Positions 48,462 to 56,253 of a stretch of DNA of 64,000 nucleotides are shown one piece after another. The translations under genes and the position numbers were made by a program. The first letter of the stretch is position 1; each line of letters begins with the position of its first letter. A model generated the notes under the pieces. That model saw only the letters and a program-made list of their open reading frames with translations, had not been told where the DNA came from and made no database searches. The DNA comes from Bacteroidota bacterium (GTDB taxonomy: Bacteria > Bacteroidota > JABWAT01): NCBI GenBank assembly GCA_023151185.1, contig JAKLJL010000002.1, positions 62,001-126,000 on the forward strand, read 5' to 3'.

Positions 48462-48497
48462 GAAAAAAAAGCCGGTTTCCCCGAAAGAAAACCGGCT
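48462..48497 (-). terminator. Intrinsic terminator after infB
   Basis: On the minus strand a 9-base-pair stem (AGCCGGTTT at 48470-48478 with AAACCGGCT at 48489-48497) is followed by about eight T (48470-48463). It lies 20 bases past the infB stop and separates rimP-nusA-infB from rbfA-truB-ribF. Confidence 0.88.
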
Positions 48498-48516: not shown

Positions 48517-51500
48517 TTAAGCCAGAGTACGTTTGGTTTCCACCATTTTAAAGCCCTCGATCAGATCCCCAACTTTGATATCGTTGAAGTTCTTCACGTT
48601 AAGACCGCATTCGAAGCCTTTTTCGACTTCCTTAACATCGTCTTTAAACCGTTTCAGAGAATCCAGTTCACCGGTGAATACCACGATTCCATCTCTCACA
48701 ACTCTGATCTTGCTGTTCCGGTGCATCTTTCCATCCAGAACGTAGCAGCCTGCAATGGTTCCGATTTTGGAAATCTTAAAGGTTTCCCTGATTTCAAGGG
48801 TTGCTGTTACTTCTTCAGTTATTTCAGGAGACAGCATACCTTCGAGAGCCAGTTTCACCTCGTTGATGGCGTCATAAATGATCGAATACAGACGGATGTC
48901 AATTTCTTCGGTCTGAGCCAGTTTCTTGGCATTCAGATTCGGACGAACCTGGAAGCCGATAATGATGGCATCTGATGCAGAAGCAAGCAACACATCCGAT
49001 TCGGAAATTGGTCCAACAGCTTTGTGGATTACCTTCACCCGGACCTCAGCATTCGACAGTTTCATCAGGCTGTCAGAAAGAGCTTCAACAGACCCATCCA
49101 CGTCACCTTTCACGATAATGTTCAGATCACGGATGGAGCCCTCACTCATTCTCTGGCTGATCATATCGAGAGACATGTGTTTCTGTGCTCTTCGTTGTTC
49201 CTGTTCTCTTTTCAGAATCTGGCGTTTTTGAGCAATATCACGGGCCTCTTTTTCAGAATCCATTACCACGAGAATATCCCCGGCCTGCGGTACTTCTGCA
49301 AAACCAAGAACCTGAGCCGGCATGGACGGACCAGCCTGTTTCATTTTCTTGCCCCGTTCATCCAGAAGTGCCCTTACTCTTCCGTAAGTTGCACCGCTGA
49401 GGAAAATATCCCCAACTTTTAGGGTTCCGGTCTGAACCAGAATGGTTGCAACAGTTCCTTTTCCTTTGTCAATTTCAGCCTCGATCACCGCACCCTGGGC
49501 ATTCCGGTCAGGATTTGCCTTCAGATCCAGAATTTCGGCTTCAAGAAGAACTTTTTCGAGAAGTTCAGGAACCCCGACCCCCGATTTGGCGGAAACCTTA
49601 GCCACCTGATATTTACCGCCCCATTCTTCAACGAGAATATTTTTCTCTGAAAGCTGCTGGTAAATACGGTCAATATTGGCGTTGGTCTTATCAATTTTAT
49701 TGATTGCAAAAACCATTGGTACACCGCCGGCCTGGGCGTGGTTGATAGCCTCAAGTGTCTGGGGCATCACACTATCATCGGCAGCAATTACAATAATTAC
49801 AACGTCAGTAACCTTGGCACCCCGTGCCCGCATGGCCGTAAAGGCTTCGTGACCCGGTGTATCCAGGAACGTAATGGTCCGTTCATCGGCCAGCTTCACT
49901 GAATAAGCACCGATGTGCTGGGTAATTCCGCCTGCTTCACCGGCAACCACATTGGCCTTCCGGATATAGTCAAGCAGAGATGTCTTTCCGTGATCGACGT
50001 GACCCATGATCGTAACAACCGGTGGTCTTGGTTTCAGGTCTTCAGGAGCATCATCATCCTTGGTTGCATAGATATCTTCAGCAAATTCATCCTGAAACTC
50101 AACACCGAATCCAAAGTCAGAGGCAATGAGTTCAATATTATCTCTCTCAAGCCGCTGATTAATGGATACGAAGAGTCCCATTGCCAGACATTTTGACAAA
50201 ACCTGATTAACCGGAACACTCATCAGCCCGGCCAGTTCGTTAGCACTGGCGAAGTCGGTAACTTTAATGATGGTGGATTGACGGATCATTTCCTGCTGCT
50301 TTTCAGCTTCGGCCATTTCTCTCTGGGCCTTTTTCCGTTTTTTGGCAGCATGACGTCCGGTGAATCCGCTTTCATCCATGGTGGCAAGTGTGGTCCTGAT
50401 GGACTGCATGACCTCTTCATTGGTCAGCTCAACCACCTTGCCCTTTTTAATTTTCCGTTTTTTGCCAAGGGCCTTTGCGCCTTCTTCACCTTCTTTTTTA
50501 ACCGCAGTTACCGGCTTATCCTTGTGTCCGGGTTTCCCGGCCGAACCGGGCTGAGGGGCTGCAGGAGCCGGCTGGTTGGCAAGTTTCGGACGTGAGGCAC
50601 CCTGTTGCTGGGGTCTCTGTCCATCTTGCGGACGACGGTCTCCGGGCCGCTGTGGATTGTCTCTTCTGGGTTGATTCGGATCCCTTGGCGCCTGACGATC
50701 GGCGGGACCGCCGGGCTTCTCATCCTTGCCTTTCCGGCGTGGACGTTTCGTATACTCATTAAACTTATCAAGATCTACTTTCCCGACTTCTTTAACCTTC
50801 AGTTCAATTCTCTGATGGCCTTCGTGGGATTTAAATCCGGATTCACTTTTTTCTTCCTTATCCTGAGAACCGGTCTCAGTTTCGGGGGTAACCTCTGCCG
50901 GTGTCTGTTTTTCAGGTTCCTGGATTACCGGATCAGGTTCAGCCGTAACAGCAGCCGGTGCGGCTGGAATTTCGGGTTCTGGAACTGGTACCGGTTCCTT
51001 TTGCGGTTCAGGTACAGGAACAGGTTCTGTTTTTTCCTTTTTAGGACCGAATCCAGACTTTTTCAAATCAATTTTACCGATTACTGTCAGACCCTTTTTG
51101 GGAGCAGAAACTGGCGGAACAGAAACTTCTTCAGCTTTTTCAGGTTCTGCCTGAAGTTCAGCAACAGGCGCAGCCGGAACTGGTTCAGGTTCCGGTACCG
51201 GAGCAGGCTCAGGAACAAGCGCCTTTACAGGTTCTGCAATTTCTGCCGATGCCGGGATGGGCGCTGCAACAGGAACTGGAGCAGGGGCTGCAGGTTTTGC
51301 AGGAACGGGAACTGGCGGGTGCGGTGCCGGCTGTTCTTTCTGGCGGCTGGTGGAAAGCTGCTGAATTTTCTGATTAATCCGTTCAGCTGCTGCTTTATCC
51401 TTCTGGAAATGGGCCTGGCATTCAGAATATTCTGCGTCAGAAAGGTTCGATGTCATATTCACAACATCTTTGAAGCCTTTCTTCTTCAGCAACTCGATGA

Positions 51501-51549
51501 TTGCATCGGTTGATACATTAAATTCCTTGGCCGCTTGAAATACTTTCAT
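48517..51549 (-). CDS. infB: Translation initiation factor IF-2
   Basis: 1010 residues. An N-terminal IF-2N domain (about 1-55) is followed by a long Pro/Ala/Val/Glu-rich disordered linker (about 70-330, many PVP and PEP repeats) and a Lys/Arg/Gly-rich patch. The GTPase domain has [16 protein letters not shown] and NKIDK; domains II, III and IV follow. It brings initiator tRNA to the 30S subunit. The linker is longer and more repetitive than in E. coli IF-2. It is the last gene of the rimP-nusA-infB operon. Confidence 0.96.
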
Positions 51550-51606: not shown

Positions 51607-52929
51607 TTAATTTTCGTCATCCTCCCTGAACTCATACTCAATTTCGGATATGAGATCATTAATCTGGTCAATGGGTGCACCTGTTTCTGCTGCAATATCA
51701 TCCGGCGAAACCTGCATCACTTTCCGGGCAGTATCATATCCGGCATCGACAAGGAGCTGCAGGAATTTCTGATCAAACTCGGTAAATTCCATGATATCCA
51801 CATCATCATCACCGGTCGGTTTGAACTCACGGATGATGTCAATTTCATATCCGGTCAGGTTTGAAGCCAGCTTAATATTCTGTCCTTCACGACCGATCGC
51901 CAGTTTCACCTGGTCGGTCTGAACGTACACCTTGGCATATTTATTCTTCTCATCAACTTCCACCTTCATAACACGGGCAGGGGCCAGGGCTTTTGAAATA
52001 AAAACTCTCGGATCGGAAGAATACAGGACTACATCAATATTTTCATTGCTGAGTTCTTTTACAATCGAGTGAATCCGGGTTCCCTTCATCCCCACACAGG
52101 CGCCAACAGCATCAACGCGGTCATCGGTACTTTCAACTGCAATTTTTGCTCTTTCACCCGGCAACCGGGCAATTGATCTGATCTGAACAATTCCGTCATA
52201 AATTTCAGGAACTTCAATCTCAAATAATCTTTCGAGGAATTTGTTGTCTCCGCGCGAAATAATAATAACCGGGTCGTTATTATAGTTTTCTTTCCGGATG
52301 CGGTCATTGCTGCGTCCGTTGCGATCTTCCCGTTTTTTACGAAGTTCTTCTTCTTTAAAATCGGCCAGGCGTTTAACATCCTTGATAACTGCCCGGATGG
52401 TTTCGCCTTTCTTCGGATTTTCTTTCAGGATCTGCTCATCTTTGGGCATAAACAGTTCAACCTTGTTATGGTTGACAAGCATCCAGGATTTACCTTTCTG
52501 GTAGACATCCCCAACCACAATTTCACCGATCTGGGCAGTATATTCATTGAAAATATGATCTTTTTCCAGCTCTCTGATTTTTTGATTCAGGCTTTGCTTT
52601 GCCTGCATAATCAGACGGCGGCCAAATTCTGCGAGCGGAATAATTTTAACCGTTATATCCCCGAGCTGAGCATCTGAATCCAGCTTTCTGGCATCCTCAA
52701 GCGAAATCTCATCCACATCGCTGAATACGTCTTCAACAACTTCCACTTCCTGAATGATCTGAATATCGCCTTTGTCCATATTCACAATCACGCTGAAATT
52801 TTCATCTGTAAAATACCGTTTCCGGATCATTCCCATAAAAATTTCACGGATAATACCGGAGAGAACGTCTTTATCGATATTCTTGTCCCGGGCTATCTGG
52901 GCAAAACTTTCTACGATTTCAGAATTCAT
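51607..52929 (-). CDS. nusA: Transcription termination/antitermination factor NusA
   Basis: 440 residues: N-terminal RNA-polymerase-binding domain (1-~125), S1 domain, two KH domains (with VGMKGTRI and IGREGQN) and a C-terminal helix-hairpin-helix-like acidic region (from about 390). It is shorter than E. coli NusA, which has two acidic repeats. It affects pausing and termination and in several bacteria controls its own operon through leader RNA. It starts 14 bases after rimP and precedes infB by 57 bases. Confidence 0.95.
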   Translation of the reverse strand: MNSEIVESFAQIARDKNIDKDVLSGIIREIFMGMIRKRYFTDENFSVIVNMDKGDIQIIQEVEVVEDVFSDVDEISLEDARKLDSDAQLGDITVKIIPLAEFGRRLIMQAKQSLNQKIRELEKDHIFNEYTAQIGEIVVGDVYQKGKSWMLVNHNKVELFMPKDEQILKENPKKGETIRAVIKDVKRLADFKEEELRKKREDRNGRSNDRIRKENYNNDPVIIISRGDNKFLERLFEIEVPEIYDGIVQIRSIARLPGERAKIAVESTDDRVDAVGACVGMKGTRIHSIVKELSNENIDVVLYSSDPRVFISKALAPARVMKVEVDEKNKYAKVYVQTDQVKLAIGREGQNIKLASNLTGYEIDIIREFKPTGDDDVDIMEFTEFDQKFLQLLVDAGYDTARKVMQVSPDDIAAETGAPIDQINDLISEIEYEFREDDEN

Positions 52930-52943
52930 ATGCGGTCCTTTTT

Positions 52944-53420
52944 TTACCAGTCTACCTGAACGGTGACGAATTCAATCTCACCGGTTTTCAAAGCATGACG
53001 GGGTGGTTCTTCTTTTTTATGTTTATTTTTTTCTTCAATAATCAATTCGGCATCAGAGACGGACCGAAGATAACCCGTTACGGGTTTTTTGCCAGTATCT
53101 GCCCGGAAGGTCACTTCTACCAGCCTGGAAATCTGCGATTCAAGTGCTCTGAAATCTCTCAGCGGCTCCCCGATTCCAGGGCTGCCGACAACTAAATCCC
53201 AGGGTCCGTCGAACAGGTCAACCGATTCGAGCAGGTCGTTCAGACTTCTGGAAATTCCGGTTGCCTCACCGGAAGTCAGCCCTGTTCTGGTTTGGACTGA
53301 AACTTCGACTTCAGTCTGGCTTCCTTTTTTTACAGAGACCGAAACTTTAAACGCCTGAAAGGGTTCACATGCCTTTTCAACCAGGGGTTCCAGAATCGAA
53401 ATAATCTGCTGTTCGGTCAT
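52944..53420 (-). CDS. rimP: Ribosome maturation factor RimP
   Basis: 158 residues from ATG 53420 (MTEQQ), the usual length. A longer frame from 53513 would run through the promoter and leader hairpin described below and add 31 unlike residues, so I reject it. The protein has the RimP DUF150 pattern with LFDGPWDLVVGSPG. It is needed for 30S maturation. No Shine-Dalgarno sequence is seen, only AT-rich bases before the start. Confidence 0.9.
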   Translation of the reverse strand: MTEQQIISILEPLVEKACEPFQAFKVSVSVKKGSQTEVEVSVQTRTGLTSGEATGISRSLNDLLESVDLFDGPWDLVVGSPGIGEPLRDFRALESQISRLVEVTFRADTGKKPVTGYLRSVSDAELIIEEKNKHKKEEPPRHALKTGEIEFVTVQVDW

Positions 53421-53439
53421 AATCAAGTGGGTATAAAAT

Positions 53440-53472
53440 AAAAAAAGTGGTCTCCGACTGGGGGCCACTTTT
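53440..53472 (-). terminator. Terminator-like leader hairpin upstream of rimP
   Basis: On the minus strand AAAAGTGG (53472-53465) pairs with CCACTTTT (53450-53443), with extra pairing inside the 14-base loop (for example 53454-53455 with 53460-53461), and the stem runs into a seven-T tract (53446-53440). It is placed between the -7 element (53484-53491) and the rimP start (53420), that is in the 5' leader. This is the shape of an intrinsic terminator and could attenuate rimP-nusA-infB. Confidence 0.72.
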
Positions 53473-53483
53473 CCAAAGACCTG

Positions 53484-53514
53484 CAAATATAGGTCGTTTC
53501 CGGGTAAAATCAAA
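53484..53514 (-). promoter_or_regulatory. Bacteroidota-type promoter of rimP-nusA-infB
   Basis: On the minus strand TTTG (53514-53511), 19 bases, then TATATTTG (53491-53484), an exact match to the TTTG-N19-TAnnTTTG layout. It lies 64-70 bases before the rimP ATG and just ahead of the leader hairpin. Confidence 0.65.
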
Positions 53515-53545: not shown

Positions 53546-53947
53546 CTATCTGACAGTAAACCCGGTACTCAGGCGGGAAATCCAGATTTGTCTGACTTCA
53601 TCAGGCCAGGCATCAGATTCAGTCAGGATGATTTCAAACTCGTTGGAACGCCTGCAGATTTCGTTGGCTGCCTGCAGGATCCGGTCAGAAAGAGTCAGGA
53701 TAAACCGGGCATTCCAGTCCGGATCTTCCCGTTCTGCCTCCGTCCAGTCCAGCCAGACAGACTCCCCGTCACCCGGGCGGAACTGAAGGTTAAACGGGAT
53801 CAGAAAAATACTATCCCCCGGAATCTGGTAGTTTCGGGAATATAATCCGGGTAAGACCCCAAAAACATCCCTGAAATTCCCTTCCAGACTGATGGTGAAA
53901 CCGGTTTTTTCGGAACGGAGAACAAGCCTGTCCAGATCCAGAATCAT
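53546..53947 (-). CDS. Hypothetical protein between hisG and rimP
   Basis: 133 residues with alternating hydrophobic and acidic stretches and many Trp/Arg (for example SVWLDWTEAERED). No signal peptide or membrane segment. No family is recognised. The ATG lies one base after the hisG stop, so it is made with hisG; it ends before the rimP promoter. It may be a Bacteroidota-restricted protein. Confidence 0.6.
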   Translation of the reverse strand: MILDLDRLVLRSEKTGFTISLEGNFRDVFGVLPGLYSRNYQIPGDSIFLIPFNLQFRPGDGESVWLDWTEAEREDPDWNARFILTLSDRILQAANEICRRSNEFEIILTESDAWPDEVRQIWISRLSTGFTVR

Positions 53948-54827: not shown

Positions 54828-55307
54828 TTAAAGGTGGGAAAAAATATCCGTTAACTGAATCCGTTTTGAACCGGCCAGTTTCAGGGAATGACGTAAAATT
54901 TCAGACAGGGCTGCAGGAAATGCTTTTGCACCGCAAACCAGATCTGAACAGGCATGAATCAGCGATTTTGCCGGCTGCTCAGAGTCGGCTTCCTCAAGCA
55001 AACCGGATTCAAGTTTCCGGAACAGACCCTCAGCTTCGGTGTTGTCTTCGGGAGAATAAAAAGAAAGAAGGATCAGATAATACCATAACTGGCTGATTTC
55101 AAGTGCCAGATCCTCGCCGGACTCAAACCGCCAGGCCATCCAGACCTCGGCAGCTTCTTCCGTGAGTTTTCTGTAAACGGCTGGTTTACCTTTCCGGAAA
55201 AGGTTCTGACTGCCCGAATTTCCGTCTGCAGAGGCTAATTTCAGCTTGAGTTCGCCGAGCAAAGTCAGAGGAGTTTTCCCCTGACCTGCAGCTTGATTTT
55301 CATTCAA
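54828..55307 (-). CDS. hisE: HisE-like phosphoribosyl-ATP pyrophosphohydrolase with C-terminal tail
   Basis: About 159 residues if the start is TTG 55307, which has AGGAA six bases upstream. The open frame extends to 55454, overlapping the proline dehydrogenase gene by more than 100 bases; that start looks wrong. Residues ~30-95 resemble HisE/MazG-type helices with KLTEEAAEVWMAW and LALEISQLWYYLILL (the E-E-x-x-E metal motif). A ~65-residue tail follows that is not in ordinary HisE. It would hydrolyse phosphoribosyl-ATP, the second histidine step, and it sits next to hisG, which supports this. A MazG-like nucleotide pyrophosphatase is the alternative. Confidence 0.6.
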   Translation of the reverse strand: MNENQAAGQGKTPLTLLGELKLKLASADGNSGSQNLFRKGKPAVYRKLTEEAAEVWMAWRFESGEDLALEISQLWYYLILLSFYSPEDNTEAEGLFRKLESGLLEEADSEQPAKSLIHACSDLVCGAKAFPAALSEILRHSLKLAGSKRIQLTDIFSHL

Positions 55308-55350
55308 ATCAGATTCCTGTCTGTACCGGAGGATAAAAATCCCCGGTGGT

Positions 55351-56253
55351 TTATTTAAGTCCGAAAAGGGCTTTAAAGACGTATCCGGCAACTTCAGGGT
55401 TTTCCTTAAACCGCCGGGTCGAATATCCGTACCATTGCTCACCATAGGGCACATAAACCCGCAGCCGGTATCCTTGTTTCAGAATAGAATCCCGTAATCT
55501 GGGCAAAACACCGAGTAACATCTGGAATTCAAAATTGTCCTTTTTAACCTGGTGTTTTCTGACCAGTTTAATGGTTTCGGTAACCAGATATTCATCGTGT
55601 GTTGCCACTCCGACATAACACCCAGAAACAAACATTTTTTCAATCTGTTTCAGAAAATTATCCCGTATTTCCTGCTTGTCTTTAAAGGCGATGGCCTCTG
55701 GTTCAACATAAATACCTTTGCAGATCCGCAGATTGGCACGGTTTTGAATTAACAGGTCCACATCCTGATCGGTTCGTTTAAGGTAAGCCTGAATTACCAG
55801 CCCGACATTATCAAATTCCTTCCTGAGGCGGAGGTAAAGGTCGATTTCCTTTTGAGTACAGGCCGAATCTTCCATATCAATCCGGATGAACATATTCTGG
55901 CTTTTTGCAAGTTCTACCAGGCTCCTGATGTTTTGGTATGCAAATTCTTCATCCAGTAAAAGCCCCATCTGGGTGGGTTTGATGGAAACATTCGAATCCA
56001 GTTTTTCTCTGCTGATAGCCATTATCAGGCTTTTTAATTCTTCAACATCCCGGGTTGCCCGTTCCTTATGGTGAATAAATTCTCCCAGCAGGTCACAGGT
56101 AGCCATTGCGCCCAAAGCGTTGATTTTTCGGATGGTGGTCAAGGCATCTTCCAGTTTTTCACCGGCAATATAAGGCGTAGCGAACCGCCGGACGATAACT
56201 TTCGGAATTAACGGAATGGAGGCTACAATGAATTTATTAAACAATGATGGCAT
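55351..56253 (-). CDS. Proline dehydrogenase
   Basis: 300 residues, a stand-alone FAD-dependent PRODH domain with the conserved RICKGIYVEPE region, EFQMLLG and the C-terminal YVPYGEQWYGYSTRR segment that grips proline and the flavin. It oxidises proline to pyrroline-5-carboxylate, passing electrons to quinone. No pyrroline-5-carboxylate dehydrogenase is nearby. It has its own promoter (below) and GAGGA before its ATG. Confidence 0.9.
   Translation of the reverse strand: MPSLFNKFIVASIPLIPKVIVRRFATPYIAGEKLEDALTTIRKINALGAMATCDLLGEFIHHKERATRDVEELKSLIMAISREKLDSNVSIKPTQMGLLLDEEFAYQNIRSLVELAKSQNMFIRIDMEDSACTQKEIDLYLRLRKEFDNVGLVIQAYLKRTDQDVDLLIQNRANLRICKGIYVEPEAIAFKDKQEIRDNFLKQIEKMFVSGCYVGVATHDEYLVTETIKLVRKHQVKKDNFEFQMLLGVLPRLRDSILKQGYRLRVYVPYGEQWYGYSTRRFKENPEVAGYVFKALFGLK

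Follow-up and report, generated by a model that had tools for sequence, protein, structure and literature searches.

The DNA analysed here (the window, 64,000 nt from a Bacteroidota bacterium) carries on its minus strand the genes rimP, nusA and infB, ahead of which lies a short leader composed of a predicted promoter and a terminator-like hairpin (Table 1). The promoter has both elements of the Bacteroidota sigma-A type (TTTG near -33, TAnnTTTG near -7): TTTG is separated by 19 nt from TATATTTG, and the stem begins 11 nt further on. The TAnnTTTG consensus has been given in PMC7366714, and PMC9723704 also contains the promoter consensus and the -7 position.

A preliminary description of this locus had pointed to an exact minus-strand TTTG-N19-TATATTTG promoter, an 8-bp stem within about 12 bases of it that runs into seven T, a rimP start about 20 bases after the T run and a NusA gene within the operon. 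These features are indeed present: the promoter spans 53514-53484, the gap to the stem is the 11 nt given above, the seven T occupy 53446-53440 and are followed by ATTTT, the rimP ATG (53420) lies 19 nt past the T run, and nusA is recognised by its Pfam domains. Four of the seven T also take part in the stem, as its outer A-U pairs. Transcription is expected to start about 3-5 nt 3' of the -7 box (53481-53479), and the terminated RNA is predicted to be ~40-45 nt long.

Table 1. Features of the rimP-nusA-infB locus in the window (positions are those of the window)
Feature	Position	Strand	Basis or remark
-33 element TTTG	53511-53514	-	exact match; Bacteroidota-type sigma-A promoter; TTGA-like in relatives
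-7 element TATATTTG	53484-53491	-	same in the four species aligned from the class
5' arm AAAAGTGG of terminator-like stem	53465-53472	-	sequence and folding
Loop CCCCCAGTCGGAGA, 14 nt, weak inner pairing	53451-53464	-	folding
3' arm CCACTTTT	53443-53450	-	CCACTTTTTTTATTT without change in the four species
T tract TTTTTTTATTTT, expected release point	53435-53446	-	conserved in the class
rimP, first gene of the operon	52944-53420	-	Pfam RimP_N
nusA, presumed regulator and regulated gene	51607-52929	-	Pfam NusA_N, KH_5
infB (IF2)	48517-51549	-	Pfam IF-2
Strong terminator-like hairpin AGCCGGTTTTCTTTCGGGGAAACCGGCT in the infB/rbfA gap	48470-48497 (48462-48497 with T8)	-	closes the rimP-nusA-infB unit
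133-aa ORF between hisG and rimP	53546-53947	-	no Pfam match
208-aa ORF upstream of hisG	54828-55454	-	no Pfam match at E<=0.001

Distinctiveness of the leader and its gene neighbourhood

The arrangement found in the leader is rare in its surroundings. The promoter TTTG-N19-TATATTTG occurs a single time in the 3.74-Mb genome, and its more general form, TTTG-N19-TAnnTTTG, twice in the window (0.32 expected). Requiring a stem of 6 bp or more with a T tract no further than 30 nt downstream of TAnnTTTG left one site in the window; the mean over 200 dinucleotide shuffles was 0.04. The pattern AAGTGG-N6-18-CCACTTTT is likewise confined to the leader site genome-wide, where it gives one match per strand because it is nearly palindromic. 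Generic scans for promoters and terminators of the E. coli type performed no better than on shuffled sequences and were excluded as evidence.

Folding of the 5' leader, recommended in the preliminary description, did produce the stem (-12.6 kcal/mol, with three G-C pairs among its 8 bp), but the free energy is ordinary and single-sequence folding was not significant (z -1.24). The significance of the leader rests on its position and conservation and not on its folding energy. Searches of the leaders against Rfam (release 15) returned no family at the gathering score, and only chance matches at a relaxed threshold; a covariance model of the element is therefore justified.

The hairpin that ends the operon is more stable than that of the leader (-17.5 vs -12.6 kcal/mol) and, given this hairpin and the T8 run after infB, rbfA-truB-ribF must be either a separate unit or one fed by readthrough. 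On the other side of the leader, hisG and the 133-aa ORF lie on the same strand as rimP and end ~32 nt before the promoter, and no terminator was found in the window between these genes and the promoter. Because the upstream genes are co-directional, the leader hairpin might simply be their ordinary 3' terminator, which makes this a real rival to attenuation; its position downstream of the promoter argues against it, as do the loci described below.

ORFs similar in size and N-termini to the 133-aa frame, and also co-directional, precede rimP in two other loci (L082 and L083), and a 138-aa ORF occupies this place in a third (L084). The 208-aa ORF resembles, as judged by eye, phosphoribosyl-ATP pyrophosphatase (HisE).

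Conservation of the leader within the class and between phyla

The preliminary description had named the lack of a conserved stem in close relatives as one result that would refute its reading, and the reading withstood this check. In an alignment of four species of the class (that of the window, two congeneric species and one from a sister genus), the stem, the T tract and the promoter are kept in all four. Between the -7 box and the T tract, the window is identical to the two congeneric species at 59/62 and 58/62 positions, while the flank (100 bases upstream) is identical at only 39/93 and 37/91 (~42%); at the start of rimP, 64 of 120 bases (53%) match in the congeneric comparison. The corresponding values for the sister genus are 43/61 for the leader, 34/85 for the flank and 42/120 for rimP. 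The leader changes more slowly than the rimP gene behind it. In the sister genus (L084), GUGG/CCAC and the T tract are kept, and the inner loop is replaced by a perfect CUUC/GAAG inner stem (CTTC/GAAG in DNA).

The same form recurs far beyond the class. The region upstream of rimP was examined in 192 loci, mostly from Bacteroidota (including Ignavibacteria), together with KSB1, Calditrichota, Deltaproteobacteria, Nitrospira and others. A hairpin followed by a T tract, under a strict criterion, was found on the sense strand in 145 of these 192 loci; the antisense strand gave 12 matches and shuffled sequences 10/960. The loci are not an independent sample, since Pedobacter and certain other genera contribute more than their share, and truncated upstream regions account for part of those without a match. 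A looser criterion recovered 184 of 193 loci, a figure that has no shuffle baseline and is not counted as evidence. In 97 loci TAnnTTTG preceded the hairpin by no more than 60 nt.

Stems at the same position vary by lineage (GUGG/CCAC, GAGGGGAC/GUCCCCUC, CGCCC/GGGCG, GGGAAC/GUUCCC, AGUCCCG/CGGGACU, AGGGAG/CUCCCU): the bases differ, and the pairing and T tract are preserved. Bacteroidota, KSB1, Calditrichota, Deltaproteobacteria and Nitrospira share the position and form of the leader, perhaps by common descent, with strongly diverged stem sequences, which are too different between lineages for covariation to be scored in one alignment.

The gene upstream of the leader is not constant. According to a rough ORF call, the nearest upstream ORF is divergent in 38 of 101 loci, and the hairpin is still present; clear cases are L014, L017 and L051-L055, the Spirosoma group being among them. 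The hairpin is independent of the upstream gene, and these divergent neighbours exclude termination of that gene as a general explanation. Together with the hairpin of the RimP-less family described below, they leave it very improbable that the element in the window is no more than the terminator of hisG and the 133-aa ORF. As a side effect, the leader hairpin may also stop incoming upstream transcripts.

The leader in a family in which RimP was not detected

Genes rimP and nusA, read from coordinates, are adjacent in nearly all of the 158 genomes sampled from the phylum. An exception is the genome G108, whose family (here f30: G108 and G158-G210, 54 genomes of 27 genera) was examined as a whole. 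The Pfam domain RimP_N was not detected in 53/54 genomes of f30, and a more sensitive profile built from 28 RimP sequences revealed no RimP beyond the single positive at E<=0.01; two weak matches (E 0.06-0.08) belonged to long frames (623 and 458 aa). Most genomes in the other families of the same order have RimP, and NusA was detected in 47 of the 54 f30 genomes. The family is apparently devoid of the 30S maturation factor RimP, a loss which may itself be of interest.

The single RimP match in f30 (locus L208, on contig C71 of G164) was set aside as probable contamination or misassembly, as judged by reading the protein sequences: a purD-like sequence is attached to the RimP frame, ung-like and hisS-like genes lie beside it, and nusA of G164 is on another contig. 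A GGAGTGAGATTTATTCTCACTCC hairpin also precedes rimP in L208.

In f30 the leader is retained, directly before nusA, after the loss of rimP. A GGGC...GCCC hairpin with a T tract occupies this position in 26 of 29 readable loci (shuffles, 2/2900; antisense, 6), and in two further loci the hairpin is imperfect or longer-looped. TAnnTTTG lies at most 45 nt upstream in 21 loci, the gene beside the leader is usually divergent, and infB follows nusA in all seven loci examined. Where rimP is kept in other families of the order, the core before it is the same (for example ATGGGCGGGTTGCCCATTTTTTG in L185, compared with ATGGGCTGTATGCCCATTTTTTG before nusA in L227). In one RimP-less genome (G178, locus L221), there is no hairpin before nusA, and a near-perfect tandem repeat with about four copies of GTAAGCGAATTTTATTAACA was observed.

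This family constitutes a natural deletion experiment. Since the hairpin stands before nusA where RimP is undetected, the leader tracks nusA-infB rather than rimP and cannot need RimP. The comparison argues against RimP as the reader of the leader, a role for RimP, or for the state of 30S assembly sensed through it, that was hypothesised in PMC2965389 and that would fit a protein which contacts rRNA and is encoded by the first gene of the operon; we regard this role as extremely improbable. An unpublished expectation of our own, that under feedback by NusA the leader should stay with nusA when a neighbouring gene is lost, agrees with what was found in f30. As infB still lies behind nusA there, the comparison does not tell NusA from IF2 and, with the two genes remaining linked in the RimP-less genomes, control of the leader related to IF2 is possible.

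Proposed control of the operon and known leaders

We propose, with a probability of about 0.72, that the leader serves the nusA operon as a minimal transcription attenuator, with NusA as its most likely controller. The attenuator reading, already contained in the preliminary description, which put autoregulation forward as inference, gains support from the conservation in the class, from the same arrangement across the phylum and from the tie to nusA-infB in the RimP-less family. Termination at the leader and its dependence on NusA are suggested by analogy with Bacillus subtilis where, according to PMC12288461, NusA represses its own synthesis through NusA-stimulated termination in the leader and stimulates intrinsic termination throughout the genome.

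RNA polymerase would start at the TTTG/TATATTTG promoter and make ~10 nt of RNA before reaching a modest hairpin and T tract, at which a share of the polymerases would stop after ~40-45 nt, the remainder reading into rimP-nusA-infB. Abundant free NusA would increase termination at this suboptimal hairpin and lower transcription of the operon, and scarce NusA would permit more readthrough. NusA has been proposed to aid the formation of suboptimal hairpins (PMC8060035), and in E. coli the transcripts of the operon go up when termination by NusA is reduced (PMC6511841). The ~10 nt before the stem leave little room for a sensor domain, and the best fit is a protein that acts on the elongation complex, with NusA the candidate.

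The same economy of structure would also suit a leader that lacks feedback, that is, one terminating a fixed fraction of transcripts to set the level of expression, or serving as a pause site: there is neither an antiterminator nor a separate sensor domain in a leader that begins so close to its stem. A weaker promoter could be a simpler substitute for such a fixed device, which accounts poorly for near-universal retention in one operon and for lineage-specific sequence conservation above that of the coding region. With feedback demonstrated in B. subtilis (PMC12288461), we find this explanation unlikely.

A switch formed by RNA alone was considered for the genus of the window, in which the 5' end of the leader, GGUCUUUG, could pair with CGGAGACC (loop and 3' arm) and so exclude the terminator; the alternative hairpin would form first, and folding would set the outcome. 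Its predicted stability (-11.5 kcal/mol in G000 and -12.4 kcal/mol in G001) approaches that of the terminator (-12.6). Against shuffled 5' segments, however, p was just 0.06-0.09; the terminal pairs are broken in G002 and are uncompensated, the alternative is weak in the sister genus (-4.7 vs -15.1 in L084), and a transcription start 5 nt past the -7 box would leave both leading G's outside the RNA. Such a switch is improbable, and no general antiterminator was found: when pairing of the 5' segment with the loop and 3' arm was assessed in 97 loci, 5% reached p<0.05, which is the rate expected by chance.

Attenuation in front of rimP has a precedent. Naville and Gautheret (2010; PMC2965389) described the rimP-leader, characterised by a GGGc...gCCC stem and no antiterminator, as the most ubiquitous attenuator and put it first in their ranking of gene families by frequency of attenuation; NusA was proposed as its controller and RimP as the alternative, and the question was left undecided. 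Bacteroidota are not mentioned in the main text of that paper. The leader of the window resembles the rimP-leader in that its hairpin and T tract lie in the 5' leader of rimP-nusA-infB, in its distance from the ATG (19 nt, inside the published range of 4-130 nt), and in lacking a general antiterminator and having NusA as the proposed controller. It differs in its stem, GUGG/CCAC (GTGGC...A-CCAC) with a 14-nt loop, and in its Bacteroidota kind of promoter (TTTG/TAnnTTTG), which leaves only ~10 nt of RNA ahead of the stem. As the GGGc...gCCC signature is absent, we report the leader as a divergent variant rather than a strict member of the rimP-leader family. A GGGC...GCCC stem is present in f30 and related lineages.

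The present work shows how densely the element occurs in Bacteroidota, where promoter and hairpin lie close together, and adds the comparison based on RimP loss, no earlier instance of which was found in the open-licence literature (supplementary tables aside). We are inclined, with some reserve, to view the "rimP-leader" as really a nusA leader: a self-contained ~45-nt sensor of NusA level that works without an antiterminator, is strongly selected throughout the phylum and was retained by the family that lost rimP. It offers a compact and testable terminator that may report the level of NusA in a phylum where the control of termination has received little study.

Three further leaders invite comparison. 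That of B. subtilis nusA (Mondal et al. 2016, cited by PMC12288461) also places an intrinsic terminator before the same operon; feedback there arises from NusA-stimulated termination, a role that NusA would play here by analogy, and the leader is longer (~180 nt, PMC2965389, vs ~60 nt in the window). An element before rimP in Flavobacterium psychrophilum, of the same phylum, is transcribed, has a conserved structure and gave no Rfam hit; the accessible part of its report (PMC9723704) proposes no mechanism and does not name the rimP-leader, and the likeness is one of description and not of compared sequences. In the E. coli metY-rimP-nusA-infB leader, the terminators t1/t2 stand ahead of rimP and repression depends on NusA (PMC6511841), but the leader is long and contains a tRNA gene and several promoters. 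A tRNA gene was also seen upstream of rimP in four loci of Deltaproteobacteria/Proteobacteria (L071, L072, L073 and L075), an order that recalls metY before rimP of E. coli.
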